A stretch of 64,000 bases of DNA from Clostridiaceae bacterium OM02-2AC (lineage in GTDB: Bacteria > Bacillota_I > Bacilli_A > Erysipelotrichales > Erysipelotrichaceae). Within the stretch, counting starts at the first letter, position 1, and every line of letters begins with the position of its first letter. The notes under the pieces were generated by a model. The model saw only the letters and a list, made by a program, of their open reading frames with translations. It was not told where the DNA came from and ran no database searches. Below, one piece after another: positions 22,801-61,362 of the stretch. The position numbers were made by a program, and so were the translations under genes. The stretch covers positions 1 to 64,000 of the forward strand of contig QULU01000020.1 in assembly GCA_003481775.1 (NCBI GenBank). The letters are read 5' to 3'.

Positions 22801-23478
22801 ATGATGGACAATAAAATAAATTTTTATGGATTTGAAACGGGTGTACTTTTAGAAAAATTGGATAAAGAGTTTGATCATTATGCTTGCAATAATAAAGAAT
22901 TGAATTATGGATTCTATAACGAAAATAATGGTTTCTTTTTGGAAAAGGATTATAAAGAAAACCTAAAGTATATTCGTGATTATGTAGATCAGGGAGTGGA
23001 TGGAACATATGGAGTTATTTCTTTTCAAGGAAGCGTTGAAATAGGAGGAGAAGATTATAAGAACATAAAAGACAACGATTGTGATTTAACAAATATGGAT
23101 TATTCATTCTTTAAAGATTTATCAAGTATTGAATATTCTGTATGCAAAAAGGATGGGAAATTAGTAGAGAATTTTTTGGAAGATGAAATTAAGAAATTAG
23201 TTGCATCAAAAATAGAAAAAGATTGTCCAGTGGATATGCTCCATCTTACAGATCGAGCAAAATATTGTTTGAAAGCAAGTGGAATTACAACTTTAAAAGG
23301 ATTATTGAAAACACCTTTATACGATATGAAAAATCTAAAAAACATTGGGAAGAAAGGGTATCCTTCTATAAGAGGAGAACTTAATCGAATTTGTTATGAC
23401 ATTCAATTTAATAAAGAACAAGATAGAATAAATAAATTTATAGAAATTGAAGAAGAAATGGATGAAATTGAAAAATAG
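22801..23478 (+). CDS. Protein with RNA polymerase alpha-CTD-like domain and acidic tail
   Basis: 225 aa. N-terminal 135 residues are unknown (begins MMDNKINFYGFETG). Residues about 140-200 (DMLHLTDRAKYCLKASGI, TTLKGLLKTPLYDMKNLKNIGKKG) have the helix-hairpin-helix pattern of the alpha subunit C-terminal domain, which binds UP-element DNA and activators. The end is IEIEEEMDEIEK, the shared acidic tail; the stop codon lies in palindrome copy 8. It could bind DNA or imitate alpha-CTD in order to redirect transcription; inference only. Confidence 0.6.
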   Translation: MMDNKINFYGFETGVLLEKLDKEFDHYACNNKELNYGFYNENNGFFLEKDYKENLKYIRDYVDQGVDGTYGVISFQGSVEIGGEDYKNIKDNDCDLTNMDYSFFKDLSSIEYSVCKKDGKLVENFLEDEIKKLVASKIEKDCPVDMLHLTDRAKYCLKASGITTLKGLLKTPLYDMKNLKNIGKKGYPSIRGELNRICYDIQFNKEQDRINKFIEIEEEMDEIEK

Positions 23479-23490
23479 GAAGTCACTTCC
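23478..23490. repeat. GGAAGTNACTTCC palindrome, copy 8
   Basis: Copy 8 of 16. The TAG stop of the tailed gene overlaps the left arm; right flank TATTTTTG completes a 12-bp stem with a T-run. Confidence 0.9.
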
Positions 23491-23504
23491 TATTTTTGCA
23501 GAAA

Positions 23505-23573
23505 GCATGAAAATGCTATCTGTTAGAGTGCATAGAAATTTGTTATAATAGGGATATGAAAGAAGGTGGTTTA
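23505..23573 (+). promoter_or_regulatory. Promoter segment of first AAA gene
   Basis: Contains GCATGAAAATGC, TATAAT at 23544 and RBS GAAGGTGG. The block of about 70 bp is repeated almost unchanged before the second AAA gene (25305-25370), so the promoter was duplicated with the gene. Confidence 0.6.
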
Positions 23574-25235: not shown

Positions 25236-25241
25236 ATGCAA

Positions 25242-25287: not shown

Positions 25288-25370
25288 TATTTTTGTAGAG
25301 AGCATGAAAATGCTATCTATTAGGGTGCATATAAATCTGTTATAATAATAGTATGAAAGAAGGTGCTGAA

Positions 25371-27035
25371 ATGTCTATATACAGAACAAATGTTAGATTT
25401 GGAGTATCTTTACAAAATAGAGCGAAATCTGTAAGTTCATTAAACACAAGATATTTACTGAATGATTTGAACAAATATCTGTACTCTGATTTATCAGTGA
25501 ATACACCTTATTATGGTAAAGTTTGTGCGTTATATGGTTTGCGAAGAACTGGGAAGACTACTATGATGTTACAATCTATTTTAGGTATGACAAATGAGCA
25601 ATTTAATAAAACTGCATGGATAGATGTAACAGAAGAAGACAACATGGCAAGTTTGTATCTAGATTTACAAAAATTAAATGAACAGGGATATAAATATATT
25701 TTCATTGATGAAATTACCAAAGTAGAACAATTTGTAAGAGTATCTTCTTTACTATCAGATGAGTTTGCTATATCAGGTATTCATATTGTATTAACAGGAA
25801 CAGATTCATTAGGTATTTATTTAAGCCAAAGAGGAGAGTTGTTTGATCGTTCAATTTCAATTCATACAACTTATATTCCATATTATGAATATACGCATTT
25901 ATTTCCAAATGCCACTGCTGAAGATTATATTGTGGAAGGTGGATTGTTGTCAAAAAGTGGAATTAACTATAATAGAGATGAAAATTTTAAAGAATATGTT
26001 GATTCAGCTATTGCAGAAAATATTCAACATTCCTTGTCTAAATTAAAAGATAAAGGAGATTTAGGTGCTTTATATTTAATTCATAGTCGAGGAGAATTAA
26101 CAAATGTTATCAATCGAGTTATCGAAGATAAGAACCATGAATTTTTACTTGATGCAATTTTGAAAAATTTTGAATCTCATGATATTGGAGTTTTGCATCA
26201 CTATATATCGGATGTTAAAGACAATGATATATTATCCTATAGTGCTGATATGAATGTAGAAAATCTATCAGAGCAAATAAAAAAGGATTTAAAGATTTTA
26301 AATTACAATGAATTAAAGTATGGCTTAACAGAAAATGAACTTGCACAGATAGAAAATTATTTGTATGAGTTGGATTTTTTTGATGATGTTAAATATTGTA
26401 CAGTTAGCAAAGAATTTTCAATTTCTGATAATCCTGTCGTTGTTCAACCTTGCATTCGTTATAATCAGGCAAAATCAGCATTAAAAGCGTTGTATAATGA
26501 CCCTAAATTCGTTAAGTTGAGTGGAGATAAACAAGAGTTCATTTATAACAAATTGTTATCTGATATTAAAGGAAGAATGTTAGAAGAAATTGTTCTCTTA
26601 AATGTAACTAGAAGTTTATCTGATTGCTTTGTTTCTCAATTTAGATTTTATGAGTATAGAAAATCTCCATTTAAAAATGGCGAATATGATATGGTTATTC
26701 GTAACAAAAAGAATGAAACATTCATTTTTGAAATTAAACATTCTTCTGAAGTTGAATACAATAAACAAACAAAACATTTGCTAGATACTGAAAAACTTGA
26801 TTGGTTAAAAGAAAATGGTTTTAAAGTAAAAGAAAAAGTTGTTTTATATAATGGAAAGACTTTAGATAAAGATGATAATGGGGTTATATATCTTAATGTT
26901 TCAGAATTCCTTGAAGAACTGAAAGTATATGACCGTAATTATTTGTATAATAAGAATGGCATTACTGATGGAAACGAAGACAATGATGCAGTCAATATAA
27001 GTATTGAAGATGATTTTGAAGATAGAGATATTTAA
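25371..27035 (+). CDS. AAA ATPase with C-terminal nuclease-like domain (paralog 2)
   Basis: 554 aa from MSIYRTNVRFGVSL; start by RBS GAAGGTGC. Same build as paralog 1: Walker A YGLRRTGKTTM, Walker B YKYIFIDEI, sensor IVLTGTDSLG, then HTTYIP.YE in both. C-terminal NGEYDMVIRNKKNETFIFEIKHSSE keeps the nuclease-like D-E-K residues. It ends SIEDDFEDRDI, almost identical to the end of the unrelated Fic protein (SIEEDFEDRDI). The two AAA proteins may form a mixed ring, or represent a diversified pair such as antigenically distinct defence units. Confidence 0.72.
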   Translation: MSIYRTNVRFGVSLQNRAKSVSSLNTRYLLNDLNKYLYSDLSVNTPYYGKVCALYGLRRTGKTTMMLQSILGMTNEQFNKTAWIDVTEEDNMASLYLDLQKLNEQGYKYIFIDEITKVEQFVRVSSLLSDEFAISGIHIVLTGTDSLGIYLSQRGELFDRSISIHTTYIPYYEYTHLFPNATAEDYIVEGGLLSKSGINYNRDENFKEYVDSAIAENIQHSLSKLKDKGDLGALYLIHSRGELTNVINRVIEDKNHEFLLDAILKNFESHDIGVLHHYISDVKDNDILSYSADMNVENLSEQIKKDLKILNYNELKYGLTENELAQIENYLYELDFFDDVKYCTVSKEFSISDNPVVVQPCIRYNQAKSALKALYNDPKFVKLSGDKQEFIYNKLLSDIKGRMLEEIVLLNVTRSLSDCFVSQFRFYEYRKSPFKNGEYDMVIRNKKNETFIFEIKHSSEVEYNKQTKHLLDTEKLDWLKENGFKVKEKVVLYNGKTLDKDDNGVIYLNVSEFLEELKVYDRNYLYNKNGITDGNEDNDAVNISIEDDFEDRDI

Positions 27036-27395: not shown

Positions 27396-27414
27396 CATGT
27401 TTGGGGGTGCTTGT

Positions 27415-28491
27415 ATGAGCGAAAAACTAGATTTCTATGAAGTGAATGTTGATTATGTAAAATATTTAAAACAATTCGATTCTCGAATACCTAATGTGGA
27501 GTATCAGAATAGAAATAAATTTTTGTGTGGTACTTTATTTAAAATCAATGGATTGAATTATTTTGCTCCTGTATCCTCATTTAACATAAAACAAAGTTCA
27601 AATTATGTCATTGAAGTAGGAAATGTACCAGTGGGAAGTGTTCGTTATTCTTTTATGTTTCCTGTGCCTGATGCAGAAATTAAACAAAAAGTGATAAACA
27701 ACGAAAGTGATTATCAATACAGATTTCTGCTAAGACAAGAATTAAAATATTGTAACAAGAATAGAGAAGTCATTCAAAGTAAAGCAAAAGCAATCTATCA
27801 CAAGGCATTGGATAAGAATACGACATATCATCAGTTCTGTTGTGATTTTCAATTATTGGAAAAAAAGTGTAAAGAATGGATTTATGATAAAACCATAGAG
27901 AAACATGAAAAAGGGATTCCCATGTATAAGTTTTCCTTTCAAGAGAAAATGACATTGTTAGAACTTACGAAAGACAGACATATGATTGAGTTATTAGCTG
28001 TAGATCATAATGAAGTTATTAAAAATAAAGCAACAGATAAACTTAAAAAGATAGATGAAGCTACTAAGAAAGTATCTCCAGTTCATGAACTTTTGAAGCA
28101 GAAAGAAACAGTACCCCATAAAATTTATTTTACTGATTATCAGACAACAGTTCGATTGGAATTGATAAAAGATAGTATTTGCTATTACAAGAATGAGTTG
28201 AATAATTCAATCTATGCATTGGAACGAAAAGATGCTCATTTACCTCAAGTGATGCAGAGAATGTTAGAACCATATCTAAAGGCAAATGAAAAGAATACCA
28301 ATGTATATGTTCTAACAGACAGTGACCTAGCTAATAGCAATTATCATAGTCTTTTGATTGAATATCAGAATTATCCTGAACGGTTTGATTATGTGCGAAA
28401 AGGAATAGTTACTTCCAGTCAAAAAACAGCAATTATGGAAAATGAAAATCAATTTAATAAGACAGATGAATTTGATGAAATTGAAAAATAG
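27415..28491 (+). CDS. ToxN/AbiQ-type endoribonuclease with C-terminal extension and acidic tail
   Basis: 358 aa from MSEKLDFYEVNVDYVKYL (RBS GGGGGTG). Residues 1-160 match the ToxN/AbiQ family: DSRIPNVEYQNRNKFLCGTLF, NGLNYFAPVSSF, YSFMFPVPD, QYRFLLRQELKY, and CCDFQLLEKKCKEW. These toxins cut mRNA and are held inactive by processed RNA repeats in phage defence and maintenance. Unlike the usual 165-200-aa toxins, this one has about 190 more residues of unknown function and ends NKTDEFDEIEK, the common acidic tail, with the stop in palindrome copy 11. A functional split between ribonuclease and a delivery or partner domain is possible. Confidence 0.78.
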   Translation: MSEKLDFYEVNVDYVKYLKQFDSRIPNVEYQNRNKFLCGTLFKINGLNYFAPVSSFNIKQSSNYVIEVGNVPVGSVRYSFMFPVPDAEIKQKVINNESDYQYRFLLRQELKYCNKNREVIQSKAKAIYHKALDKNTTYHQFCCDFQLLEKKCKEWIYDKTIEKHEKGIPMYKFSFQEKMTLLELTKDRHMIELLAVDHNEVIKNKATDKLKKIDEATKKVSPVHELLKQKETVPHKIYFTDYQTTVRLELIKDSICYYKNELNNSIYALERKDAHLPQVMQRMLEPYLKANEKNTNVYVLTDSDLANSNYHSLLIEYQNYPERFDYVRKGIVTSSQKTAIMENENQFNKTDEFDEIEK

Positions 28492-28503
28492 GAAGTGACT
28501 TCC
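28491..28503. repeat. GGAAGTNACTTCC palindrome, copy 11
   Basis: Copy 11 of 16; overlaps the TAG of the ToxN-like gene. Complete stem with T-run TATTTTT. Confidence 0.9.
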
Positions 28504-28527
28504 TATTTTTAGAAATGGAGAAAATAT

Positions 28528-29201: not shown

Positions 29202-30011
29202 ATGAATTTAAAAACACTTTATGAATTGAAGGAAGTACTTGATTTCTGTGGGTATCATGACACTATAGTGGAAGATATGACAAACAGGGGAATCGACCTT
29301 GAATCTTTGGAAGATAAAGTAAACCACGAACAAAAGGAAATCGAGGAGAATGTATATCCAAATCTTCATGGAACAGAGCTATTAAACAAAGAAAATATAT
29401 CTTTACTAGGAGAAGAAATACTACAGTATTTTGAAAAGACTTTGGAAGAATGGGATAAAGGTATTATTGATTATGATAAGAATACGAACCAATTATTCCA
29501 TAATGAAGGAAAGATATTCAGCAGTGATGTTATTGCATGGTATGAAGGTGGAAGAACTACAGAAGATTTAGTCAAAGAATACAGTGATGAAAAAGAGGTG
29601 GAAGAAGATAGGGAACATCAGATTCTCTTGTTATTGGGTCACGCTGTGCATTTAGGTTGGAATATAAAGCATGATGATGAAGGTATTTACTTCCATAAAA
29701 CAGCACCAAATGGTTTAGAACTTGGTGTACACTTTGATGCTGTCCATGAACAGGAAAGTGTTGAAGAATTTCTTGATGCAATTTATGAGTATGGAAATGA
29801 ATATAGTGTAGCTGAAGAATTGAGTTATTATGCAAATGTAGAGCATTATGGACAAGGACTTGTTTTAGATGATGTGATTGATGATTTGAAGTGGTTTAAA
29901 GATGAAGTTTTAGAAGTACATACTTTTTTGGAAAACTATCATCAGGAACTTTCACAAAAAGAAAATGAAACGATAGAGATGGAGTTAGAAGAAATCGACA
30001 AGGAGTTATGA
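29202..30011 (+). CDS. Hypothetical acidic protein with tail
   Basis: 269 aa, very acidic, no membrane segment. A central HLGWNIKHDDEGIYFHKTAPNG region looks like a small folded domain, and the protein ends TIEMELEEIDKEL, a variant of the common acidic tail. Part of a chain of genes with short gaps up to RadC (31104). Confidence 0.6.
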   Translation: MNLKTLYELKEVLDFCGYHDTIVEDMTNRGIDLESLEDKVNHEQKEIEENVYPNLHGTELLNKENISLLGEEILQYFEKTLEEWDKGIIDYDKNTNQLFHNEGKIFSSDVIAWYEGGRTTEDLVKEYSDEKEVEEDREHQILLLLGHAVHLGWNIKHDDEGIYFHKTAPNGLELGVHFDAVHEQESVEEFLDAIYEYGNEYSVAEELSYYANVEHYGQGLVLDDVIDDLKWFKDEVLEVHTFLENYHQELSQKENETIEMELEEIDKEL

Positions 30012-30135: not shown

Positions 30136-31104
30136 ATGAAGATAGATGTTGTTGGAATTCGATTAGTAAAGGAGCGAGAAATCGACTATGATAAGCCAAT
30201 TAAGAAACCAATAGATACTGTGAATTTTGTTTTAGAAGAGATGCAGGACTTGGATAGAGAAATGTGCATGACATTAAATTTAGATGCAAATAATTGTGTG
30301 TTAAATGCTCATATTGTATCTGTTGGTGGTTTAGATAGTTCGATAGTAGATGTAAAAAGCGTGATGAAATCGGCATTGTTGTCAAATGCTTGTGGAATTA
30401 TTATGTATCATAATCATCCATCAGGAAACAGCACACCAAGTCAAGAAGATTTTCAAATTACTGAAAAAATTAAAAGAGCCTGTGAGATTATGGACATTCA
30501 ATTTTTAGATCATATCATCATTGGAAAAGAAAACTATTATTCAATTCGTGGCGAATATACGAAACCATACGATACTTCAAAGCGAAAAGCTGAAAAAATA
30601 ACAAGAGTATTAACGATTCAGTCTTCGGATTTAGATGTGTCGAAAAAGGTGTATGCAGATAAAGATAGATGTAATTATCAAGAGGCATTACCAATTTATA
30701 GGCGATTATTTGATGATTATAATCGAATGAAAGAAACAGATTATTCATCTTTCTTTTGGGGCTTTTCCAAATTAAAAACAAAAGATATGGATAAGGCAAT
30801 TGAAAGAGCCTGTCATATGATAGGAAAAGAAACAGATGATTCTAAAATTTATGTACTGGATATTCCTAGTGAACTTTGTTTAGAAACTGACTTTTATAAT
30901 TTTGCTGATGAAATCTATGCGTATCAATATCCAAATGAAATGGAAAGTATATGGAATTCAATTTATGAAAAAAGAAATTCTGAACGGCAAGTGATTTTTC
31001 CGTATATTGAACCATCTATGATCGTTGGAGAAATTAAGCAAGGTAAATTTATTGAATTCAATCATGAAGAACAAAATTTAGAACTAGATGAAATTGAAAA
31101 ATAG
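30136..31104 (+). CDS. RadC/JAB-domain protein with C-terminal extension and acidic tail
   Basis: 322 aa. Residues 20-130 form a RadC-like JAB (MPN) metalloprotease-fold domain with YHNHPSGNSTPSQED (His92, His94, Ser96, Asp105), and earlier VGGLDSSIVDVKSVMKSAL. RadC proteins are frequent on conjugative elements and are a common piece of polyvalent proteins; their activity is unsettled. About 190 further residues are unknown. The end is NLELDEIEK, the common tail, with the stop in palindrome copy 12. Confidence 0.85.
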   Translation: MKIDVVGIRLVKEREIDYDKPIKKPIDTVNFVLEEMQDLDREMCMTLNLDANNCVLNAHIVSVGGLDSSIVDVKSVMKSALLSNACGIIMYHNHPSGNSTPSQEDFQITEKIKRACEIMDIQFLDHIIIGKENYYSIRGEYTKPYDTSKRKAEKITRVLTIQSSDLDVSKKVYADKDRCNYQEALPIYRRLFDDYNRMKETDYSSFFWGFSKLKTKDMDKAIERACHMIGKETDDSKIYVLDIPSELCLETDFYNFADEIYAYQYPNEMESIWNSIYEKRNSERQVIFPYIEPSMIVGEIKQGKFIEFNHEEQNLELDEIEK

Positions 31105-31116
31105 GAAGTGACTTCC
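31104..31116. repeat. GGAAGTNACTTCC palindrome, copy 12
   Basis: Copy 12 of 16; contains the TAG of the RadC-like gene. Confidence 0.9.
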
Positions 31117-31139
31117 TATTTTTTAGAAAGAGGTATATC

Positions 31140-31692: not shown

Positions 31693-31833
31693 GCTAAAAT
31701 GAGTATAGTAGAATTCGTGTGAAAACTATAAAGTAAATCAAAATGTACTTACAAAAAATAGTAGGTGCTTTTTTTATTGGAGTCATCAGAAATGGTGGCT
31801 CTTTTCTTTTATGCAAAGAAAGGTGGTTTCTCT
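31693..31833 (+). promoter_or_regulatory. Promoter and leader with terminator hairpin
   Basis: Extended -10 TGC-TAAAAT at 31693-31700 starts a leader that holds GAGTCATC / GGTGGCTC (31780-31801) followed by TTTTCTTTT, then the RBS AAAGGTGG before the ATG at 31834. A terminator placed before the gene points to attenuation or antitermination. Compare 27368 and 45891. Confidence 0.5.
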
Positions 31834-32802
31834 ATGAAAAATCAGAGTTATCTCTCTGTATATAAATGCAATGAATTTAGAGTGGTAAGTAATGAGTTTA
31901 TTGGTCGTATTGAAGATACACCTGAAAACATTTCAGCTTTTGTCGTATCGGCTGATTTTAATTCCAATTACGCATTAGTGGATGATATGGATACTGTTAA
32001 AGTATTTACCATTGGTAATTTCTTGGATTTAGTACCTGATACAGAGTATTTAGAAAAGGAATTAAGACCAGTCTTGTTACAGATGCAATTTGGAGAAATA
32101 GAAATACCTGAAGTAAGATATGAAGCTATAAAAAAGAGTTTGGAAGAGTTTTTAGGAGAAAAAGGATTGTCTTCTCCAATTAGTGATTTTTTAGATGATA
32201 AACTTCGTTCTAATCGACAACTAAAAACACAACGAGGAGCAAGAAAATTTTATAGTGATGCCAACAAACAACGAATGGAGTATGCGAAAAAAAGAAGCGA
32301 AGCAATTAAAGAATATAATACATTAGTTAAAGAGGGGAAAATTATTCCCAAAACGCTGATAGAAAGAACTTTAGATAAAGCACAAGGGCATTCCGATAAT
32401 CCATCCGTTCAGGCAGCTAGAAGAATAGCAGAAAAAAGAGGATATGATTGGAGAACAGGAGAAAGACTTGAGAATGCAAAAATAGATAATGTTCAAATTG
32501 TGCAACTGGAAGTCTATAAAACTGGAGAGTTAAAAGGGTATGCTGATTTCTCTGTTGAAATTGGAGATGGCAAAGTTGAAGGATTGTATCGTATCTATGA
32601 CCCTGAAAACGGCAAAGAACAAACGATTGTAAGTTTCGATAACGGATATTCATCCAAAGAAATCATTGATACCTATTCCAATACAATAGAAACAGAACTG
32701 AAACTTGCTACAGAGGATACTTATCATAGCATGATTAAAGCAGATAAAAACTTTGATGAAATAGAACAAGATGATTTCGACCATGATGATATAGAAATTT
32801 AA
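31834..32802 (+). CDS. Hypothetical protein with double acidic tail
   Basis: 322 aa from MKNQSYLSVYKCNEF; start by RBS AAAGGTGG. A helical, basic middle (KQRMEYAKKRSEAIKEYNTLV; PSVQAARRIAEKRGYDWRTGERL) may bind nucleic acid, followed by a beta-rich part. The end NFDEIEQDDFDHDDIEI looks like two tail units in a row. No known family. Confidence 0.6.
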   Translation: MKNQSYLSVYKCNEFRVVSNEFIGRIEDTPENISAFVVSADFNSNYALVDDMDTVKVFTIGNFLDLVPDTEYLEKELRPVLLQMQFGEIEIPEVRYEAIKKSLEEFLGEKGLSSPISDFLDDKLRSNRQLKTQRGARKFYSDANKQRMEYAKKRSEAIKEYNTLVKEGKIIPKTLIERTLDKAQGHSDNPSVQAARRIAEKRGYDWRTGERLENAKIDNVQIVQLEVYKTGELKGYADFSVEIGDGKVEGLYRIYDPENGKEQTIVSFDNGYSSKEIIDTYSNTIETELKLATEDTYHSMIKADKNFDEIEQDDFDHDDIEI

Positions 32803-34862: not shown

Positions 34863-35028
34863 TGAAAAAGAAGCTGTAGAAATCGTTTTAAACGATTCAG
34901 AAGAAACACTTATTTATCACAAGAGTCCTGAAGAAGAATATTTCACAAGAGAAGCATTAAAACATGAAACAATCAATTTTGATAAAGAAAGTGAAATAGA
35001 AGAGGACTTAGATGAACTTGAAAAATAG
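34849..35028 (+). CDS. Small tail protein (59 aa)
   Basis: MEYIDEKEAVEIVLNDSEE... ending SEIEEDLDELEK. It overlaps the previous gene by 14 bp in another frame. The final segment is nearly the consensus tail, on a protein of only about 45 other residues. The coding reality is supported by the tail and by tight spacing to the next gene (13 bp). Confidence 0.6.
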   Translation: MEYIDEKEAVEIVLNDSEETLIYHKSPEEEYFTREALKHETINFDKESEIEEDLDELEK

Positions 35029-35581: not shown

Positions 35582-35590
35582 GTGGTTAAA

Positions 35591-37423: not shown

Positions 37424-37454
37424 TATTTTTTTATTTGGAAGAAGGTGTTAATGA

Positions 37455-47202: not shown

Positions 47203-47203
47203 T

Positions 47204-50479: not shown

Positions 50480-52477
50480 ATGTCAAAAGAAACTAGAAAA
50501 GATGTCAATAAGACATTTCGTTCAGGAGAGTTTGCTACCAGTAAAGGACTTCGTTGGACTGGTAAAGGATTGGATAAGAGTGCCAAATTTGTTTCCGAAT
50601 GGAAATATAACAGACAAGGAAGCCAAGATGATGGTTCAGGTGGAAGTGGTGGAAAGGCTACTTTAGGAATTCAAACACAAGTTGATAAACCAAATGCAGA
50701 GAATGGTAATGCATTGTCACAAGAGAATGATAATAGTGCTGTAAAAACGACAGGTTCACTTTCCAAATCAGATAACGATATTCCAATCAGTAGTATGAAT
50801 GAACAGGAAGGTTCTGCTGTTTTAGGTATTAAAACAATGGAATCTTCCAATGCTGTTTCTGTTGAGAATGCAGTTATAGGAAATAATGATAAAAACAGTG
50901 CTATTTCCAATATCAAGACATTGGCAAATACCGGGGATGGAAAGAAAGGCACAGGTCAAAACTTGAAAGGAAAAATGGGGGAAGGAGAAGAGGATTCACA
51001 ACACTCAAATCGTTTCCTTTCTTTTATAAATCGACATACTTTTGACTTTCAACCGACACAGGGTAAATTTTCCAAAGCAGTCACTGTCGTAGGAAAAACT
51101 TCTGTAGGAGCAAGCAAGGTTGTTAAAAAAGGGGCAAGACTTTCTCACAAAGTAGAAAAAGCAACCAATGGCGAAGATGCTACAGGAATGAAATTCATTG
51201 AAGGAGAAGTTGGACGAAAGGCAGGAAAGGTAGCAGGAAAAGTTGGGAAGAAAGTTGGAAAAACGACAGCGAAATATACCTATAAAGGTGGAAAAAAAGC
51301 AGTTCAGTTTTCCTATGTAGTGGTAAAAACTTCTATCAAAAAAGGAGTGCAAGTTGCAAAGACAGGTACAACGATTGTTAAAAGAACAGCTATGATTATC
51401 ATACAAGCTGTAACAAAAACAATGATTTCGATAGGACAATTTCTTGCCCCTTTCTTTATGTCCGTATTGGCAGGGGCATTGGCACTTGGATTCATTCTTA
51501 TTTTAATAGGTGGTGCAGGTGCAACCGAACAGCACTGTAGTACGGATTATGTATTTTCAGATGGAACAACAGAAGGAAATGCACAGGCTGTATGGACATA
51601 CTTAAAAGGAAAGGGATTATCGGATGAAGCTGTTTCAGGTGTTATGGGAAACATGGAGCGTGAATCCAATTTTGACCCTGCCCTCATTGAAAAAGGGTAT
51701 CCCTATCAAGGGCATGGCTTAATCCAATGGAGTTATGGAAGAAAAGACAATTTATTGAAACAGGCAACCTTAAAAGGTGTTTCGTGGACGGATTTAAACT
51801 TTCAACTAAACTTCTTATGGGAAGAATCCTTATCTCCTGAATCCTATTATGGAAAACAATTACAGAGGGAAGGATTTTATGAAAATAAAAGTCCATCAAG
51901 ATGTGCTTATTTGTTCCATAAGATTGTAGAAAGATCGAGTGATTCCTATCAGTCGATTTCAAATACTCGCTGTAAGTCGGCAGAGAAGTGGTATGATAAA
52001 TTAAAAGGTACATATAAGCTGACAGACTCTACAGGATGTGCAACAGGTTCTATTGAAGGCGATCCAAACTTTGGGAATACAGATGCTTGGCTAACAAAAA
52101 ATCCATATGCACAAGCAGGACTATATGGACAGTGTTCATGGTTTGCTTGGGGTCGGTTTTATGAAATCTATGGATTTAGCCCTGGTTTTACTGGAAATGG
52201 ATATTCATGTGTAGCACAGTTGTTAGCAACGCATCCTGACAAATTTGAGTTCAGTTTGATACCGAAAGTAGGAGCTGTCGGTTCTTCCGATGTTGCTCAT
52301 AACCATGTATGGATCGTAGTCGGTGTAGAGGGAGAAAAGATTACCATTCAAGAGGGAAACTTAAATGGTAAGACAGATTCCTTTGAAGTAGCAAAGAGTG
52401 ACTGGCATACAGTTACATACTCATTAAGTCAATTACGAAGTATTTATGGAAATATTTCTTTTGCAAATCCTAAGTAA
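50480..52477 (+). CDS. Conjugation cell-wall hydrolase (phage-type lysozyme + CHAP)
   Basis: 665 aa. The N-terminal 160 residues are low complexity (GSGGSGGKATLG), a basic region follows (KAGKVAGKVGKKVGKTTAKY), then a membrane helix (about 325-350, PFFMSVLAGALALGF). Outside it: a lysozyme-like domain (about 370-490, GVMGNMERESNFDPALIEKG and GLIQWSYGRK, with Glu in MERES) and a CHAP amidase/peptidase (about 540-650; QCSWFAWGRFYEIYG with Cys, and NHVWIVVGVEG with His). VirB1-like, opens the wall for the channel. RBS is weak (AAAGTGT). Confidence 0.9.
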   Translation: MSKETRKDVNKTFRSGEFATSKGLRWTGKGLDKSAKFVSEWKYNRQGSQDDGSGGSGGKATLGIQTQVDKPNAENGNALSQENDNSAVKTTGSLSKSDNDIPISSMNEQEGSAVLGIKTMESSNAVSVENAVIGNNDKNSAISNIKTLANTGDGKKGTGQNLKGKMGEGEEDSQHSNRFLSFINRHTFDFQPTQGKFSKAVTVVGKTSVGASKVVKKGARLSHKVEKATNGEDATGMKFIEGEVGRKAGKVAGKVGKKVGKTTAKYTYKGGKKAVQFSYVVVKTSIKKGVQVAKTGTTIVKRTAMIIIQAVTKTMISIGQFLAPFFMSVLAGALALGFILILIGGAGATEQHCSTDYVFSDGTTEGNAQAVWTYLKGKGLSDEAVSGVMGNMERESNFDPALIEKGYPYQGHGLIQWSYGRKDNLLKQATLKGVSWTDLNFQLNFLWEESLSPESYYGKQLQREGFYENKSPSRCAYLFHKIVERSSDSYQSISNTRCKSAEKWYDKLKGTYKLTDSTGCATGSIEGDPNFGNTDAWLTKNPYAQAGLYGQCSWFAWGRFYEIYGFSPGFTGNGYSCVAQLLATHPDKFEFSLIPKVGAVGSSDVAHNHVWIVVGVEGEKITIQEGNLNGKTDSFEVAKSDWHTVTYSLSQLRSIYGNISFANPK

Positions 52478-53248: not shown

Positions 53249-53995
53249 ATGAAATTAACTGTAGAACAGGCAAATGTACTTGATAAGATTGCAGAAAAAT
53301 CAGGCATGGATTGTTGGTTTTCAATAACAGATGATTTAACTGCCATTCATGATGTAGAAGCAAATAGAAATATCACTTTACGATATGGAATTGGTATCTT
53401 AAACCAAGGAGTAACAGATCTTGTGAAAGATTATGGATTAAATGAACATGAAGTAAAGGTATATCATGATTTACTGGTTTCTCTTGGACTTGAAAAAGAG
53501 AAGGATATGGCAAAAGATGACTTAGGAGTAAATGGAAAATATATCATTATCAATAAGGTGGTTACTGGCACTGGATTTAATGTCGTATTGGGAGTGAATG
53601 AAAGCCATCCAATCGAGGCATATCGTTATGTGACTTGGACACAAAACGATAGAGGGTATGATGTAGGACATTATTTTGGTAATTTAAAAGAAGCACAAGA
53701 AGATATGTTAGAGCGTGCCACTGATGAGATGAATATTGATTTACATGGAAAATGGTACAATGAATTTATGGAAAATGATATTCTATGTGCTTTGTCTGAA
53801 TTTCTTTCAGATGCTGAAGTGGAAGAATTGAGAAATGATAAAGAATTTATGGAACAAGCAATTCATTTTTATCAAAAAGCTGATATTGGTGTGGATCAAG
53901 CGATAAAGGATGGAGTTAAAGAACTTTATGAAGACTATAAGGAAGTCACAGTTGTAGAGTTTGATGAAGATTTAGATGAAATAGAAATGGAGTGA
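53249..53995 (+). CDS. Hypothetical soluble protein with acidic tail
   Basis: 248 aa, soluble. A KLTVEQANVLDKIAEKSGMDCWF start and repeated use of GLNEHEVKVYHDLLV; no known family. Ends EFDEDLDEIEME, a close match to the consensus tail although it lies among membrane proteins of the transfer apparatus. RBS GAAGGTGG; stop 2 bp from the next coding start. Confidence 0.6.
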   Translation: MKLTVEQANVLDKIAEKSGMDCWFSITDDLTAIHDVEANRNITLRYGIGILNQGVTDLVKDYGLNEHEVKVYHDLLVSLGLEKEKDMAKDDLGVNGKYIIINKVVTGTGFNVVLGVNESHPIEAYRYVTWTQNDRGYDVGHYFGNLKEAQEDMLERATDEMNIDLHGKWYNEFMENDILCALSEFLSDAEVEELRNDKEFMEQAIHFYQKADIGVDQAIKDGVKELYEDYKEVTVVEFDEDLDEIEME

Positions 53996-54744: not shown

Positions 54745-55434
54745 ATGGAATTAAGTGAAAGAGAACAAGAGATATTGAAACTGTATCGAGCTGATAAAAA
54801 GCGTAAAAGAAAGAAAAGGATTACATTGATTATGCTTCTTCTTTTACTGTCAATAGGTGGATATGGAGTGTATCAATATGTTCAATCCATGCCAACAGTA
54901 CCTAAAGAAAAAATAGAAGAAAAACTTACAGATACAGTAAAACCTAACATTACACTTACAACAGAAAAAATCGAAATCTTTAAAGGAGAGGATATTGCGT
55001 ATGAAAAATACATCAAAGAAGCAATGGATGATAAAGATGGAGATTTAAGTGGAAAAGTGAACTTTAATAAAATAGATGCCAATGAAGTAGGCGAATATGA
55101 AGTTTATTATCGTGTGAAAGATAAAGCAGGAAATGAATCTTCAGCAACTTTAAAAGTCATTGTAAAAGAGAAGGAAAAGCCGAAAGAGAAGCCAAAAGAA
55201 GAAGTGGTGGAACAACCAGTGCAACAAGCACCTCAACAAGGACAGCAACAAACTCCACCACCACAGCCTGCACCACCTGTTACAAAATACTTTATGTTTA
55301 CAGATGGTTATACTATGGATAATGTAACCAGTGCTTGTCAAAATGAATTGGTTGCGTCAGGAAGAGCAGGAGTTTGTACTCCGATTCAAGATGCCAGTGG
55401 TGTCTATACAGGGATGCGTTTGGATTTATACTAA
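54745..55434 (+). CDS. Membrane protein with Ig-like domain and Pro/Gln linker
   Basis: 229 aa from MELSEREQEILKLYR (RBS TTAGGTGA). Cytoplasmic charged start, one membrane helix (about 27-46), an Ig-like DUF5011/HYR domain (EIFKGEDIAYEKYIKEAMDD ... AGNESSATLKVIVKE), a Pro/Gln-rich linker (VEQPVQQAPQQGQQQ), and a small C-terminal domain with two cysteines. Resembles the surface protein at 10793 in layout. Probably contacts wall or partner cell. Confidence 0.6.
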   Translation: MELSEREQEILKLYRADKKRKRKKRITLIMLLLLLSIGGYGVYQYVQSMPTVPKEKIEEKLTDTVKPNITLTTEKIEIFKGEDIAYEKYIKEAMDDKDGDLSGKVNFNKIDANEVGEYEVYYRVKDKAGNESSATLKVIVKEKEKPKEKPKEEVVEQPVQQAPQQGQQQTPPPQPAPPVTKYFMFTDGYTMDNVTSACQNELVASGRAGVCTPIQDASGVYTGMRLDLY

Positions 55435-55450
55435 GAAAGGACAACTTATT

Positions 55451-55591
55451 ATGAAAAGAAAACTAGAAGAACAAATCAAAGAAAGCGATAAATATAATTC
55501 ATCTACAATCGAAGCAGAATATGATAATTACGATAGTCAGGAGGAAATTATTGATGAAGAAATGGAACAAGATGAAATCGAATATAACTGA
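55451..55591 (+). CDS. Tail-only acidic microprotein (46 aa)
   Basis: MKRKLEEQIKESDKYNSSTI... ending EEIIDEEMEQDEIEYN. RBS GAAAGGACAA. Nearly half of it is a version of the shared acidic tail. The next gene starts within it (55554). Confidence 0.55.
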   Translation: MKRKLEEQIKESDKYNSSTIEAEYDNYDSQEEIIDEEMEQDEIEYN

Positions 55592-56297: not shown

Positions 56298-57263
56298 ATG
56301 AAAAAAAGAGTGTTTATTGATATGGATGGAACATTGTATAGATTCCATGATCATATAGTAGATGAATCAGGTCATGTACAAATCGAGAAAATGTACGAGC
56401 CTGATTTTTTTATAAAACTGGACCCTTTTGAAAACATGAAGGATGCAATCAATCTTTTATATTCAGTAGATAAAGAGGAAGTAGAAATTTTTGTTCTTTC
56501 TTCGGCTGATATAAAAGAAGTGGTTGAACAAAAAAACTACTGTCTTGATAGAGATTTTCCATTCATTGATGAAGAGCATAGATTATTTCCGAAAACATGG
56601 GAAAGCAAAACCGAAAAAATACCTGAAGGAATTCGTGTAGGAGATATTTTAATTGATGATTACAATGTCAATCTTGAACAATGGAAAGATAAGGGTGGTG
56701 CATCTATTAAGTTTGTGAATAACATCAATCATCAAGGAAAAGGTAGATATGGTGGAGATGTAGGAAACTTATGGGAACATGAAATTCTACGCTATGATAT
56801 GAAACCAAAGGATATTGTATTAAACTTGGAAGAAATCATTGGGATACAGAGAGATAGATTTTTATTTCGATTTCCTGATGAAGAAAAAAACAAAGGTATC
56901 ATGGAAAAAGTAAGTTCGGTATTTAATGAATGGAATTTATGCGAACATGATAGCAAAGTATATTTGGTGTTTACAGGAGATTTAGAAGAAAGCATTACTT
57001 TCGATTATGAATGGATGATAAAAAATATGGATGCAGAAACGATAGAAGATGGATGTTTCTCCAGTTATGCTGAAGCTTTGTATAATTGGATAGATAGTGT
57101 CATTCAAGATATTCGTGATCTTGGCGTGTGGAATGAAGAAAAAGGGCATGATTTTTATTTGTCGGTTGAGGAAATAGAGTATTGTGGATTAAAAGAAATC
57201 TACCAAGATGAGAAAGAGAATGATTTAGAAATGATGGAAGAAATGGATGAGATTGATAAATAA
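56298..57263 (+). CDS. HAD-family 5'-nucleotidase-like phosphatase with acidic tail
   Basis: 321 aa. N-terminal 165 residues: RVFIDMDGTLYRFHDH (DxDGT nucleophile motif), IFVLSSAD, and DILIDDYNVNLEQWKDKGG, the pattern of 5'(3')-deoxyribonucleotidase-like HAD enzymes. They remove phosphate from nucleotides; here this could alter nucleotide pools. The C-terminal half is a second unknown domain. Ends MMEEMDEIDK, the shared tail. RBS GAAAGGAT. Confidence 0.75.
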   Translation: MKKRVFIDMDGTLYRFHDHIVDESGHVQIEKMYEPDFFIKLDPFENMKDAINLLYSVDKEEVEIFVLSSADIKEVVEQKNYCLDRDFPFIDEEHRLFPKTWESKTEKIPEGIRVGDILIDDYNVNLEQWKDKGGASIKFVNNINHQGKGRYGGDVGNLWEHEILRYDMKPKDIVLNLEEIIGIQRDRFLFRFPDEEKNKGIMEKVSSVFNEWNLCEHDSKVYLVFTGDLEESITFDYEWMIKNMDAETIEDGCFSSYAEALYNWIDSVIQDIRDLGVWNEEKGHDFYLSVEEIEYCGLKEIYQDEKENDLEMMEEMDEIDK

Positions 57264-57343
57264 ATGCAAAGCAATAAATAAAGGTATGTCATGACATTTG
57301 AAAGTCTGTTATAATATAAACTGAACAGAATGAGGTGAAGATA

Positions 57344-58075
57344 ATGAATCCTTTTAAAAAAGCGATAAAAGAATCTCAAGATTATTACGAAAATTTCATT
57401 ACTCGTAGTGTCCATAGTTCAAATAAAATTGAAGGAAATACTTTATCATATGCAGAAACATACGCTATCATATTTAATGATAATTCATTTTCTCTATCAG
57501 ATGTAAAACCTAGAGAAATCTATGAAGCAATCAATTTAAAATATGCGTTACAAGAATCATTGAAACAACAAGACAATGAAATCAATCCATCTTTAATTGT
57601 AAAGCTAAATGAAATTATCAATAAAAATATCAAAGATACAAGTGGTTATCGTAAAATTCCAGTGTTTATTCGTGGGGCAGATTTTGTACCACCTGAAGCT
57701 AAATATGTATCGAATATGGTAATGGAACAACTCTATTTTTATAATCATAGTACATTGCCATTGTTAGAAAGAATTGCAGATTTTCATATTCAATTTGAGC
57801 ATATACATCCTTTTGAAGATGGAAATGGCAGAACAGGTAGACTACTCATCAATCACGAATTGATTCGTAATAATGAAATACCAATCGTTATCCCTGATAA
57901 TAAAAGAGCTGAATATTTTGAATACTTGCAAAATTATGATGTTAAAGGTTTAGCTCATATGATTGAAGAATTACAAAAAGTAGAGAAAGAAAAAATGAAT
58001 TTATATGTAAAAGAAATTGTTAGTGAAGATATAAATAAAAGTATTGAAGAAGATTTTGAAGATAGAGATATTTGA
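57344..58075 (+). CDS. Fic-domain AMP-transferase with acidic tail
   Basis: 243 aa from MNPFKKAIKE (RBS GAGGTG; TATAAT at 57310). Fic motif HPFEDGNGRTGR (His155-Arg166) is complete, and SSNKIEG near residues 25-31 is the S/TxxxE(G/N) inhibitory helix in cis. Fic proteins transfer AMP (or another group) to target proteins. The end SIEEDFEDRDI is the same as that of the AAA protein at 25371. A regulated effector acting on proteins of the recipient or donor is a natural reading. Confidence 0.88.
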   Translation: MNPFKKAIKESQDYYENFITRSVHSSNKIEGNTLSYAETYAIIFNDNSFSLSDVKPREIYEAINLKYALQESLKQQDNEINPSLIVKLNEIINKNIKDTSGYRKIPVFIRGADFVPPEAKYVSNMVMEQLYFYNHSTLPLLERIADFHIQFEHIHPFEDGNGRTGRLLINHELIRNNEIPIVIPDNKRAEYFEYLQNYDVKGLAHMIEELQKVEKEKMNLYVKEIVSEDINKSIEEDFEDRDI

Positions 58076-58886: not shown

Positions 58887-60056
58887 ATGCCTGAAAAAAA
58901 GAAGTTAAGCAAGACTAGAGAAATGCTAGTTAATGAGTATATTAAATCGCTTGAACAAGACCAGTTGCCTTGGATAAAGGATTGGGGAAGCAAGCCACCT
59001 CATAACGCAATTACAAGGACACCATACAGACTTTTTAACAAAGTTTTACTTTGGTATATCCAAGAACAAAATCAATATGAGGATAGTCGTTGGTGTACGA
59101 TACGACAGGCAGAATCAAGAGAATGGTTTGTTAAAAAGGGAGAGAAATCCATTCCATTAGAATTTTATTATTACTACAATAAGAAAACTCATAAATCAAT
59201 GACGATTGAAGAGTTTTATAAATTTGTTTCAGATTTGAGAAAAGAAGGAATCTATGATGATGAAAAAACGCAGGAGTTATTAAAAGAATATATCCTTACC
59301 AGTTCTTCATTCAATGTGTTTAATGTGCAGGCACAAATGGAGCATAGACACTATATAAAGGATGGTACAGAGTATGTAAAAGCTACCGATTATTACCAGT
59401 TACTAAAAGAAATTAAGGCTGATAAAAAAGCGAGTTATGAAGAAAAAAATCAGCGTTATGCTGAATTGAAAGAACGATATGAATTAGTGACAGAAGAAAT
59501 TCCTATTGAGAAAACACCTACGATTGAATACAAAACAAATGAAGTCGTAGATAACATTATTAAGAATATGGGAGTAGGTTATGAAGAAAAGGGAGATAGA
59601 GCATACTATAGTCCTGCAAACGATACAATCACTTTACCCCCAATGACAACTTTCCATTCAGAGTATGGATACTATGCGACCAAATTGCATGAATCATGTC
59701 ATGCAACAGGGCATCCTAGTCGTCTGAATCGTGATATAGAAAATAGTTTTGGAAGTCAAAAATATGCAATAGAAGAACTACGAGCAGAAATTGGTTCTTC
59801 TTTTTTAATGGCAGAGTTAGGACTTGAAGCTGATGAAAATCATGTTAATAATCATAAGGCTTATATTCAAAGTTGGATTTCTGAATTGAAGAACGATCCA
59901 AAAGTTTTATTTGATGCGATTAAGGATGCTGATGAAATTGTAGATTACATTAAAGATATTGAGGACTTTGAAAAGTATATTTCACTGTCTGAAATTGAAC
60001 AGGAAACACTGGATACAATAGAAGAAGATAAGGATGAATTAGAAATGGAAATGTGA
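58887..60056 (+). CDS. ardC: ArdC-type antirestriction protein with acidic tail
   Basis: 389 aa. N-terminal ssDNA-binding domain (about 15-120, WIKDWGSKPPHNAITRTPYRL...NKVLLWYI), then a zinc metalloprotease-like domain with KLHESCHATGHPSR (HExxH at 268-272) and EELRAEIGSSFL supplying the third ligand. ArdC protects incoming DNA from restriction, and on plasmid pSa it is known to be carried to the recipient with the DNA. Ends TIEEDKDELEMEM. It is about 2 kb from the putative oriT, in the expected leading region. Confidence 0.9.
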   Translation: MPEKKKLSKTREMLVNEYIKSLEQDQLPWIKDWGSKPPHNAITRTPYRLFNKVLLWYIQEQNQYEDSRWCTIRQAESREWFVKKGEKSIPLEFYYYYNKKTHKSMTIEEFYKFVSDLRKEGIYDDEKTQELLKEYILTSSSFNVFNVQAQMEHRHYIKDGTEYVKATDYYQLLKEIKADKKASYEEKNQRYAELKERYELVTEEIPIEKTPTIEYKTNEVVDNIIKNMGVGYEEKGDRAYYSPANDTITLPPMTTFHSEYGYYATKLHESCHATGHPSRLNRDIENSFGSQKYAIEELRAEIGSSFLMAELGLEADENHVNNHKAYIQSWISELKNDPKVLFDAIKDADEIVDYIKDIEDFEKYISLSEIEQETLDTIEEDKDELEMEM

Positions 60057-60067
60057 GGTGACAAGAG

Positions 60068-60247
60068 ATGGAATATGCAAATAAGGAAGCGTTATTAGAA
60101 GCGTTAAGTTTAAATAAAAATGCCAGTGCAGGATATGATGAATACCCTGATGAAGATATGGAGTCTATTACATTCCATGAATCAGAAGATAAAGAAATCA
60201 CACAGCAGTTTGATACAAAATTAGATTATGAAGGTGTTTTAGAATGA
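60068..60247 (+). CDS. Small acidic protein (59 aa)
   Basis: MEYANKEALLEALSLNKNAS... with EYPDEDMESITFHE in the middle; ends KLDYEGVLE. RBS GAGGTGACAAGAG; its stop overlaps the methyltransferase start (ATGA). May be a partner of ArdC or the methylase. Confidence 0.55.
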   Translation: MEYANKEALLEALSLNKNASAGYDEYPDEDMESITFHESEDKEITQQFDTKLDYEGVLE

Positions 60248-61362
60248 ATACAGACACTATACAAATGAGTTTGTTTGACTACTTTATGGAAGATGAACAA
60301 TTTACAATTCCTGAAGCAACGGCTCTTGTAAAAGAACAAAAAAAACTACAAGTAAATGATGAATCTATTCGTGCTAGGATTTATGAAGGACTTGAATTAG
60401 GCATCTTTAAAAGGGTTGCTAGAGGTGTTTATAAAGTAGAAAGTCAGTTAAATAAAAAGACTGCGACCTGTCTTTTAATCAATGGAGATGGTCGTGATTT
60501 ATCATTTATTGAAGACAATAGTATTGATGGAATCATCACAGACCACCCATATGATTTAGCAAAATCTTTGACTGGTGGTAACAGAAAGTTTGCGACATAC
60601 GAATTATTTAAGTATACAAAAAAGGATTTTCAAGAGAAGATGCGTGTATTAAAAGAAGGAGCATTTTGTGTAGAATTGTTACCTGAAGAGAATGAAGTAA
60701 ACTATCAATACTTGTATGAAGTAAAACAAATGGCGATAAAAGAAGGTTTTAAATACTTCGCAAAAGTACCTTGGATTAAAGGCGATTTTAAAGCGAATAC
60801 AGGGCGAAAATCAAAGAATAGGGAAGACATTATGTTCTTCTCAAAAGGAGAACCACGAACACTAAAACTAGATGCTAAGAAGAATATTCAACTTGCAAAA
60901 GAAAATGATATTGATGTAAAAGGATTAAGTTCTTATGAAGTAAAAGAACGCTTAGAAGAAAATGGTTTAAGCGTTTTTTACATGAAAGGAACAAGTGGAA
61001 TGTTGCCTACAGAATTTCAAAGTAAAGTAGAAAACTTTCCAAAAGAATTTGATTTTCAACCGAGAAGTCGAACGCAAAAAGTGATGGAAGCAGAGAAACC
61101 AGTTGCACTTATGGAATCTATTATTGAATATATTTCATTACCTGACGAACTTCTTTTAGATCAATTCGGCGGTAGTGGGAACTTTGGAATTGCGTGTCTA
61201 AATACAAATAGAAATGCAATCATAGTGGAGAAAGATGAACAAACTTTTGAACGCATGAAGGATAATATTGTGAATACTATGAAAGAAAAAAGTGAAGCAA
61301 ATATTTATGTTGAAGAAGTTGATTTAGATGAAGATATGGATGTGGAGATGGAGCTTATGTAG
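60244..61362 (+). CDS. DNA methyltransferase with DHPY motif and acidic tail
   Basis: 372 aa. An N-terminal winged-helix-like module (FTIPEATALVKEQKKLQVND, RARIYEGLELGIFKRVARG), then motif IV region IDGIITDHPYDLAKS (residues 100-103 D-H-P-Y in place of the usual D-P-P-Y), and near the C-terminus LDQFGGSGNFGIA (about 306-316, the FxGxG AdoMet motif I). Order IV then I indicates a beta-type amino-methyltransferase. It could protect the element from restriction. The Pro-to-His change may alter or abolish catalysis. Ends EEVDLDEDMDVEMELM. Confidence 0.8.
   Translation: MNTDTIQMSLFDYFMEDEQFTIPEATALVKEQKKLQVNDESIRARIYEGLELGIFKRVARGVYKVESQLNKKTATCLLINGDGRDLSFIEDNSIDGIITDHPYDLAKSLTGGNRKFATYELFKYTKKDFQEKMRVLKEGAFCVELLPEENEVNYQYLYEVKQMAIKEGFKYFAKVPWIKGDFKANTGRKSKNREDIMFFSKGEPRTLKLDAKKNIQLAKENDIDVKGLSSYEVKERLEENGLSVFYMKGTSGMLPTEFQSKVENFPKEFDFQPRSRTQKVMEAEKPVALMESIIEYISLPDELLLDQFGGSGNFGIACLNTNRNAIIVEKDEQTFERMKDNIVNTMKEKSEANIYVEEVDLDEDMDVEMELM

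Follow-up and report, generated by a model that had tools for sequence, protein, structure and literature searches.

In one conjugative element of Clostridiaceae bacterium OM02-2AC, about twenty proteins, most of them unrelated, have short acidic tags at their C-termini that resemble one another. We show here, as a new observation, that this tag follows the element more than the gene. These tags are probably C-terminal type IV export signals read by an element-specific receptor.

A common acidic tag on soluble proteins

Within the window, that is, the whole stretch of 64,000 nucleotides analysed, strong tails are found on 16 genes (22801 through 60244) and on a ToxN fragment at 12223. Weaker tails at 29202, 33834 and 55331 come in addition to those listed in a previous sequence-only reading.

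12223..12708, + strand: ToxN ORF, N-terminally short, acidic tail kept
22801..23478, + strand: RNA polymerase alpha-CTD-like protein, tail IEIEEEMDEIEK
25353..27035, + strand: AAA_14 ATPase, tail ISIEDDFEDRDI
27397..28491, + strand: ToxN-family protein, tail FNKTDEFDEIEK
29202..30011, + strand: protein of no named family, weaker tail ..ELEEIDKEL
30136..31104, + strand: RadC/JAB protein, tail EEQNLELDEIEK
31765..32802, + strand: protein of no named family, tail EQDDFDHDDIEI
32990..33808, + strand: protein of no named family, tail IEEDLDEMDMEI
33834..34463, + strand: protein of no named family, weak tail ..LLTQDIEM
34849..35028, + strand: small protein, below count size, tail SEIEEDLDELEK
35042..35581, + strand: protein of no named family, tail NEIEEDLDEIEM
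35582..37411, + strand: protein of no named family, tail EDDFEELDEVEK
37455..38147, + strand: MuF_C protein, tail MDLEEDLDEIEK
38460..39320, + strand: LPD11 protein, tail IELEEEMEDIEK
53249..53995, + strand: protein of no named family, within the transfer region, tail EFDEDLDEIEME
55331..55591, + strand: small ORF, start probably later, tail ..MEQDEIEYN, uncounted (overlap)
56298..57263, + strand: NT5C/HAD nucleotidase, tail LEMMEEMDEIDK
57335..58075, + strand: Fic protein, tail KSIEEDFEDRDI
58887..60056, + strand: ArdC-type antirestriction protein, tail IEEDKDELEMEM
60244..61362, + strand: DNA methylase, tail LDEDMDVEMELM

The sequence-only reading had claimed a common acidic tail on unrelated ICE proteins, and the tails that it named are indeed present at their genes. 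At least five D/E within the last 12 residues occur in 21 of 44 forward-strand ORFs of at least 70 aa (window positions 9,000-64,000), compared with 6 of 267 ORFs on both strands of non-element stretches of the nearest genome (Fisher p 1.7e-15), which rules out chance as the origin of the tails. ORFs shorter than 70 aa, minus-strand element ORFs and ORFs overlapped over more than 30% by a longer one were removed before counting, and because of these size and overlap filters 34849 and 55331 are outside the 44. Four of the 21 acidic-ended ORFs (9509, 23556, 39362 and 42498) do not have the motif. The D/E excess spans approximately the last 12 residues and reaches background level by around residue -20; in the RadC/JAB protein at 30136, pLDDT is below 50 at residues 303-322.

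The tag is carried by soluble cargo (ToxN, RadC, MuF_C, LPD11, Fic, NT5C, ArdC and methylase), whose functions look recipient-type, judging from the protein families. The proposal that the tag is limited to soluble non-machinery proteins held, since acidic tails are present on 21 of 33 soluble ORFs and 0 of 11 TM-like ORFs of the window; over eight elements, they are found on 85 of 216 soluble and 5 of 96 TM-like ORFs. As in C-terminal signals of type IV secretion systems (T4SS), the tag occupies the very end of soluble proteins that are unrelated to one another and encoded together with a T4SS. The element is a CD1115-type ICE, with VirD4 (CD1115, 362.9 bits, NCBIfam cut-off 250) and VirB4 (CD1110, 622.4 bits, NCBIfam cut-off 325) both above cut-off:

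39362..42505, + strand: DnaG-type primase, untagged, acid-rich end without motif
42498..43766, + strand: 422-aa protein adjoining VirD4, own acidic end without motif
43769..45802, + strand: VirD4 coupling ATPase, CD1115 family, untagged
46327..47202, + strand: VirB6/TrbL-like protein, weak match under the Pfam cut-off, untagged
47192..48010, + strand: PrgI family protein, acid-rich end without motif
47913..50474, + strand: VirB4 ATPase, CD1110 family, untagged
50480..52477, + strand: phage-lysozyme/CHAP hydrolase, untagged

When the ORF ends were read, VirD4, VirB4, VirB6, the lysozyme-CHAP protein, SSB, Rep3, the integrase and the phosphoesterase were all without the tag, as had been stated. 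For PrgI, also described as untagged, the motif is absent but the end is acid-rich.

Outside these elements, homologs had been expected to lack the tail, and none of the 43 RadC homologs among the matches listed (P0026-P0068), mostly of housekeeping type and taken without genomic context, carries one. Among methylase homologs, 107 of the 120 matches listed have at least four D/E in the last ten residues, in several dialects. In viral contigs, EED[LF]DEIE was C-terminal in 0 of 16 cases, and no VirD4 or LPD11 relatives were found by scan.

Tail dialects differ between elements

Equivalent tails had been predicted in related ICEs and they are present, in element-specific versions. In elements whose VirD4 is 44-69% identical, cargo proteins end in YEYEF, DLEMDR, NEPDICD or EIEYE, that is, in other acidic/hydrophobic dialects; in E457, for instance, the homologs of the 35042 protein and of the 56298 nucleotidase end in NEPDICD and NEPDICDD respectively. 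A clear dialect is absent from the distant loci L056, L060 and L064 (VirD4 27-34%), and searches at class and phylum level gave few elements (5 of 395 and 4 of 392 genomes, G001 included). The comparison covers 23 of 33 related loci, with element bounds drawn by hand, while additional G455 and G470 sequence was left out. In one comparison of genes, 15 of 16 were matched. E458 and E463 were read, yet stand outside the ORF counts, codon ratios, ortholog-pair and dialect tests, and in E461 and E464 VirD4/VirB4 are frameshifted, their ORF ends being artefacts.

Tails of unrelated proteins of one element are alike beyond chance (dialect test, z 7.6, the protein pairs having members in common and not being independent). 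Without the window, z was 2.8, a value reached by 2 of 500 shuffles, and it was 3.7 when sister elements were also merged and 4.0 and 5.8 with a broader soluble set; controls gave 0.8, 1.0 and 1.2. The window gives the strongest dialect signal, and what remains after its removal is modest. In 38 cross-dialect ortholog pairs (51 pairs minus 13 from sister elements, with the 422-aa family and PrgI included), the tail score was 17.1 with the ortholog, 19.5 with unrelated proteins of the own element and 16.4 with unrelated proteins of another element, the own-element score exceeding the other-element score in 30 of the 38. On these scores, orthologous cargo tends towards the local dialect.

In the surroundings of ten PcfB loci, few ORFs (5 of 387) have the strict terminal motif. 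This rarity counts against the export reading, as do the distant loci without a clear dialect and the modest signal outside the window. As a lead only, we note [DE]-hydrophobic-[DE]-hydrophobic ends on certain PcfB and ArdA-type proteins in sister ICEs; other PcfB ends differ.

Relaxases and the candidate receptor

To what could the tails be addressed? The sequence-only reading answered that they direct establishment proteins to VirD4. Confinement of the tag, its absence from the 43 RadC homologs, the tails of related ICEs and a motif on MobQ relaxases agree with this answer; the element's own relaxase does not, and the charge of VirD4 gives no clear hint. The tail sought on the own relaxase is absent: this protein, read in genome G001 (573 aa), ends in ..EYYASLKVEV, and it is the sole relaxase scanned, with matches far under the cut-offs. 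The dialect tail is also absent from the putative relaxases, chosen by eye, of E453, E454, E456 and E457. Relaxases of other elements do have a comparable short motif, MobQ proteins ending in [DEN][LMI][DE][LR] in 9 of 10 cases; these come from the 10 of 18 loci whose ORF reached 450 aa or more, and are mutual homologs from four genomes, counted irrespective of the element type of each locus. A separate MobQ protein search, in which the matches listed were all at least 89% identical, was kept out of this count. Relaxase signals are often internal, so the same signal on the relaxase is helpful and not required. It counts against export that the own relaxase, the one expected substrate, does not have the dialect tail.

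In VirD4, regional net charge revealed no clear tail-docking surface when six tailed and six untailed elements were compared: central-region charges overlap (-9 to -2 and -12 to -3 respectively), while in tailed elements region 70-170 is less basic (+3 to +5 versus +7 to +15) and the C-terminal region less acidic (-10 to +5 versus -29 to -1). The 422-aa protein next to VirD4 is a candidate adaptor. It occupies the place that PcfB has in sister elements. In most of the tailed elements that were read, a member of its family immediately precedes VirD4 and has an acidic end; E457 has at this place a 593-aa protein without detected homology. A relation to PcfB (DUF3801) was found neither by Pfam (no match at E 0.05) nor by hhalign (5 against 3 sequences, probability 0.8%), and a PDB fold search with a model of the protein (mean pLDDT 69.3) gave zero matches at E <= 0.001. 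VirD4 is one possible receptor, and a different protein of the element is another.

Alternative explanations

The tails might instead dock to a hub that the element encodes (the VirD4-upstream protein, or a complex active in processing or bound to DNA), so that cargo is assembled inside the cell and nothing is exported. Such docking accounts for the dialects equally well, and the untailed relaxase and the acid-ended 422-aa family upstream of VirD4 are consistent with it; however, the recipient-type look of the cargo families and the similar terminal motif on relaxases of other elements argue against it, and we consider it unlikely. The tails could also be generically acidic, serving solubility, DNA mimicry or the avoidance of sticking to DNA without specific recognition, since every dialect is acidic and several cargo families act on nucleic acids. 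This is improbable, because the dialects differ by element beyond acidity and, in these proteins, the internal segments richest in acidic residues give an element signal of only z 0.8, a value reached by 99 of 500 shuffles; on this internal control, general acidity was rejected as explanation. A tag for regulated degradation or stability, read by an element or host protease, would suit tags that are short, free and C-terminal and that occur on unrelated proteins, but the variation of dialects by element, and the fact that the peptidase-like domains of the Pfam scans are restricted to tagged cargo (RadC JAB, ArdC metallopeptidase) or to the cell-wall hydrolase, make it very improbable.

A last alternative concerns the DNA. 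The final '..K-stop' of 6 of the 16 tails is partly fixed at the DNA level, because the stop codon lies inside a repeated palindromic terminator:

23473..23497, + strand: terminator-like palindrome holding the stop codon of 22801
28486..28510, + strand: terminator-like palindrome holding the stop codon of 27397
31099..31123, + strand: terminator-like palindrome holding the stop codon of 30136
37406..37430, + strand: terminator-like palindrome holding the stop codon of 35582
38142..38166, + strand: terminator-like palindrome holding the stop codon of 37455
39315..39339, + strand: terminator-like palindrome holding the stop codon of 38460

Thus the tail might be a by-product of a 3′ cassette (ORF end plus terminator) copied from gene to gene, given that these six tails run into one palindrome present at 12 places, that five of the six have GATGAAATTGAAAAATAG in common with at most one mismatch, and that same-codon pairs number 418 versus 362 expected (of 541 identical-residue pairs in the 16 strong tails). 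However, the other ten strong tails use different codons and are not followed by such a terminator, codon ratios are 0.89-1.28 in seven other elements, and the dialect test still gives z 4.2 without the six terminator-linked tails. A pure DNA repeat as sole cause is largely refuted by the codon ratios, which leaves this the least credible explanation, with a partial role for the six window tails; copying may have helped to spread some tails inside the window element.

An address for export?

From these data we infer export, the identity of the receptor and action in the recipient. In the export reading, each element would mark soluble proteins for the recipient, with antirestriction, methylation, toxin-like, nucleotide and DNA-repair-like functions, and the mark would be a free C-terminal tail that is short, disordered and acidic/hydrophobic. 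The tail would be bound by a receptor that the element encodes and that sits at the conjugation channel, and this receptor would pass the tagged protein on to the type IV channel. The likeliest receptor would be the VirD4 coupling protein, acting by itself or together with the product of the gene directly before it. Each element would have its own dialect because each receptor drifts, and incoming cargo genes would have to acquire the local one. More tentatively, and with somewhat less than even confidence, we envisage that some twenty establishment proteins are injected with the DNA under an element-private password that coevolves with its receptor, that the ancestral signal is the short terminus of the form [DE]-hydrophobic-[DE]-hydrophobic on MobQ relaxases of sister elements, and that dialects bar cross-export between co-resident elements.

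The known systems compared here are taken from parts of the published reports. In Legionella, acidic Glu-rich C-termini bind DotM of the coupling complex (PMC5802825). The Dot/Icm E-block resembles our case in that an acidic C-terminal stretch is found on many unrelated proteins of one T4SS (PMC5802825), and the window tails are likewise Glu-rich and acidic. In contrast to the E-block, they are strictly terminal, alternate acidic and hydrophobic residues, are element-specific and belong to a Gram-positive-type conjugative element; its machinery is of CD1115/CD1110 type and not Dot/Icm (type IVB) with DotL/M/N, DotM being absent from the Pfam scans. The XVIPCD of Xanthomonas X-T4SS effectors is, like the window tails, a common C-terminal part, which interacts with VirD4, although it measures ~120 residues and the window tail ~8-12 (PMC10025392). 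Polyvalent proteins of phages and conjugative elements, thought to be co-transferred with DNA, have ArdC-N and zincin-like peptidase domains and in this resemble the tagged cargo, while the part of the report considered describes no common C-terminal address (PMC5512222). F-type conjugation (pED208) delivers maintenance proteins to recipients (PMC8406263), by signals located at the C-terminus or internally; C-termini with positive charge were in general functional and, unlike in the window, no common acidic tail appears in the part of that report considered (PMC11288057). Element-specific tails of this kind were not described in the literature searched, a scope that mostly excluded subscription papers.

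If the export reading is true, a tag of ~10 residues would list, from sequence, the injected proteins of one class of Gram-positive-type conjugative elements. An old question, namely what proteins accompany the DNA during conjugation, would become testable element by element, and the dialects would represent a natural series of receptor-peptide pairs for locating the substrate-docking site of these coupling systems.

Acidic C-terminal tails and their background

The acidic tails that the sequence-only reading had quoted for about twenty mostly unrelated proteins are present at the quoted genes (the analysis covered every window ORF of 50 aa or more, and the ends of 65 selected genes were read). 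The shared tails are real, and they extend beyond what had been described, into a set of element-specific C-terminal tags. Pfam names the carriers as alpha-CTD-like, AAA_14, ToxN, RadC, MuF_C, LPD11, NT5C and Fic proteins, an ArdC-N protein with a metallopeptidase and an N6/N4 methylase; the remaining carriers had no Pfam match over the Pfam cut-off. VirD4 (362.9 bits) and VirB4 (622.4 bits) both score above the NCBIfam cut-offs and place the transfer machinery in the CD1115/CD1110 type; as first claimed, these two, VirB6 and the lysozyme-CHAP protein end without the tail. When ORFs were split by a simple hydropathy rule, acidic tails fell on 0/11 TM-like vs 21/33 soluble ORFs in the window, and on 5/96 vs 85/216 over eight elements. 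A surface protein of 1879 aa is also encoded in the window (16965-22604). It contains eleven SpaA stretches, matches a thioester domain weakly and below cut-off, and is likely an adhesin of the element; related ORFs occur in 8 of the 9 related elements read.

Could so many acidic ends be expected by chance? The same element is found in G001, the nearest genome compared, in three blocks that are 95.5-98.9% identical in nucleotides; window positions 12,061-13,953 have no match there. In the 140 kb read, motif genes occur only within the element, between 757,981 and 797,052. If a tail counts as acidic when at least 5 of its last 12 residues are D/E, 21/44 forward ORFs of the window qualify vs 6/267 ORFs on both strands of G001 non-element stretches (Fisher p 1.7e-15), and none of those six shows the motif by eye. 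Because these stretches contain other VirD4 relatives (24-38% identity), conjugation genes alone do not bring tails. In 97 genomes the pattern EED[LF]DEIE has three sites; G001 has two, both at C-termini of the element, and the third is N-terminal in a different gene, in G072. None of its 16 sites in viral contigs is C-terminal, the closest lying 15 residues ahead of the stop.

Element-specific versions of the tail

A VirD4 search of genome contigs gave 33 loci, of which 23 were read. The statistics cover the window and seven extended elements; two more elements were read and left out.

Tail forms on the same kinds of cargo in related conjugative elements
E453 (VirD4 69% identical): DDYEMDW, ELEYA, DYEYEF
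E454 and E456: DLEIEMER, EEIDIER, EYELER, DFDLEMDR
E457 (no mutual homology of tailed proteins detected at E 0.01): NEPDITEDM, TEPDITEDM, NEPDICD, NEPDICDD
E462: IDMEM, LDIEM
E461 and E464: YTDIEI, EIEYE, DISDELFD

Minority forms are also present within elements, and no clear version was seen in the distant loci L056, L060 and L064 (VirD4 27-34%). Tails of unrelated proteins are more similar within one element than between different elements (19.23 vs 17.13; z 7.6; 0/500 label shuffles), while the controls gave z 1.0 for non-acidic tails of the same elements, 0.8 for the most acidic internal segments and 1.2 for residues -40 to -29. Removal of the window lowers z to 2.8, reached by 2/500 shuffles (3.7 with sister elements merged); in a broader soluble set, also minus the window, it is 4.0 (5.8 merged). 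Other elements show the effect too, though less strongly than the window.

The tail follows the element more than the gene. Between elements, 51 ortholog pairs were found, 38 of them joining different tail versions; in these 38, the ortholog's tail scored 17.1, unrelated tails of the own element a mean of 19.5 and those of the other element 16.4, the own-element score being the higher of the last two in 30 pairs and the lower in 8. The structure model of the RadC protein (22 sequences, mean pLDDT 73.6) is mostly folded to about residue 300, with the tail, residues 303-322, below pLDDT 50. Six close homologs (P0001-P0006) keep the tail, the intermediate P0014 ends in DDIELEL and, judged from protein sequences alone, 0/43 more distant homologs (P0026-P0068) carry it, 31/43 having the UPF0758 domain PF20582. 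In public data, P0008, P0009 and P0011 are ORFs in which part of RadC is fused either to the end of a different tailed gene from that element (LPD11, or the gene at 32990), with P0008 and P0011 among the intermediate homologs that run into such ends, or to a neighbouring gene; these are either real deletions or assembly chimeras. For the methylase, the last 10 residues include 4 or more D/E in 107 of the 120 homologs listed, from 776, and mean D/E among those listed is 4.38 there vs 1.41 at residues -40 to -31. Their ends include DMEMELM, DDYEYDA, DDYEIER, NEPDICEDML, EIDYEY and KDITDDIF; of the remaining 13, several are ORFs of unusual length, short or long, and some have a weaker acidic tail.

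In elements from MAGs of uncultured Clostridia, the reading frames of VirD4 and VirB4 are broken by +1 at 8 sites in 5 loci, where an extra C ahead of a conserved glycine codon makes CGG (TDPK-GE, DPQ-GEY, GRPGT-GKS); at the corresponding positions, other loci simply read GGN.

+1 frame breaks in VirD4/VirB4
L044: about 10501 and 15610
L050, L054, L058, L062: same genes

From the sequences, the pattern resembles +1 frameshifting or quadruplet decoding at CGG. Long ORFs of these elements seldom use CGG (4-8 of 10,502-16,810 codons), but it is rare in other low-GC elements too, so its rarity alone is no evidence.

Possible spread at the DNA level

In six window genes (22801, 27397, 30136, 35582, 37455, 38460) the stop codon lies inside the 5' arm of a terminator-like palindrome, AAATAGGAAGT-N-ACTTCCTATTTTT, which occurs at 12 places in the element with at most 2 mismatches and at none in 100 shuffles.

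Terminator-like palindrome, window starts
5552, 16308, 16906, 23473, 25270, 27063
28486, 31099, 32948, 37406, 38142, 39315

Five of the six genes share GATGAAATTGAAAAATAGGAAGT with at most 1 mismatch. Moreover, identical residues of 16 strong window tails use the same codon 418 times vs 362 expected. On these two grounds, part of the window's tails may have been spread together with the terminator, as one piece. The observed/expected ratio in seven other elements is 0.89-1.28, the highest value coming from 18 residue pairs, and the element effect without the six terminator-linked tails keeps z 4.2. In 15 genes compared between window and G001, 6 synonymous and 3 non-synonymous changes fall in the tails, against 195 and 112 in the bodies; on these few events, the tails are kept.

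Relaxases, candidate receptors and putative export

The proposal that the tail is a conjugative export signal addressing establishment proteins to VirD4 does not extend to the element's own relaxase. Read in G001, beyond the window, this protein (573 aa; SAG1250 and TraI/MobP relaxase matches far below cut-off) ends EEVKEYYASLKVEV, without the tail. The tail is likewise absent in E453, E454, E456 and E457 from the proteins that were picked as relaxases by eye. Tail-less relaxases count against one common signal. In four genomes, 9/10 full-length MobQ relaxases end in ELDL, DMEL, NMEL, DIDR or DLDR, the two in G001 having other VirD4 relatives within about 9 kb, and similar ends occur in sister elements on a small number of PcfB and ArdA-type proteins; these ends are short relatives of the window's tails. 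Around ten PcfB loci the strict pattern marks 5/387 ORFs, host DNA included, and so is no general cargo mark there. In sister elements, ArdA/YodL polyvalent proteins (L105 38075-39847; L106 33814-37140) carry DUF4316 (43 positions) close to their C-terminal end, possibly a longer export domain.

What reads the tails? It may be VirD4 or the 422-aa protein encoded directly upstream of it (42498..43766). Net charges of VirD4 regions in six proteins from tailed vs six from untailed elements are -9 to -2 vs -12 to -3 (central, overlapping), -10 to +5 vs -29 to -1 (C-terminal) and +3 to +5 vs +7 to +15 (residues 70-170), without clear separation. The 422-aa protein sits in the PcfB position; no homology to PcfB was detected, and its model, of moderate confidence, matched no solved fold at E 0.001. 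In Legionella, DotM uses arginine patches to bind acidic Glu-rich C-termini (PMC5802825), an analogy for the candidate receptor and not a test.

The main rival explanation is a docking tag that acts without export. We lean, with moderate confidence, towards putative export through the conjugation channel as the best explanation of the tags. By this presumed mode of action they are putatively classed with C-terminal T4SS signals, for which translocation is the defining criterion.
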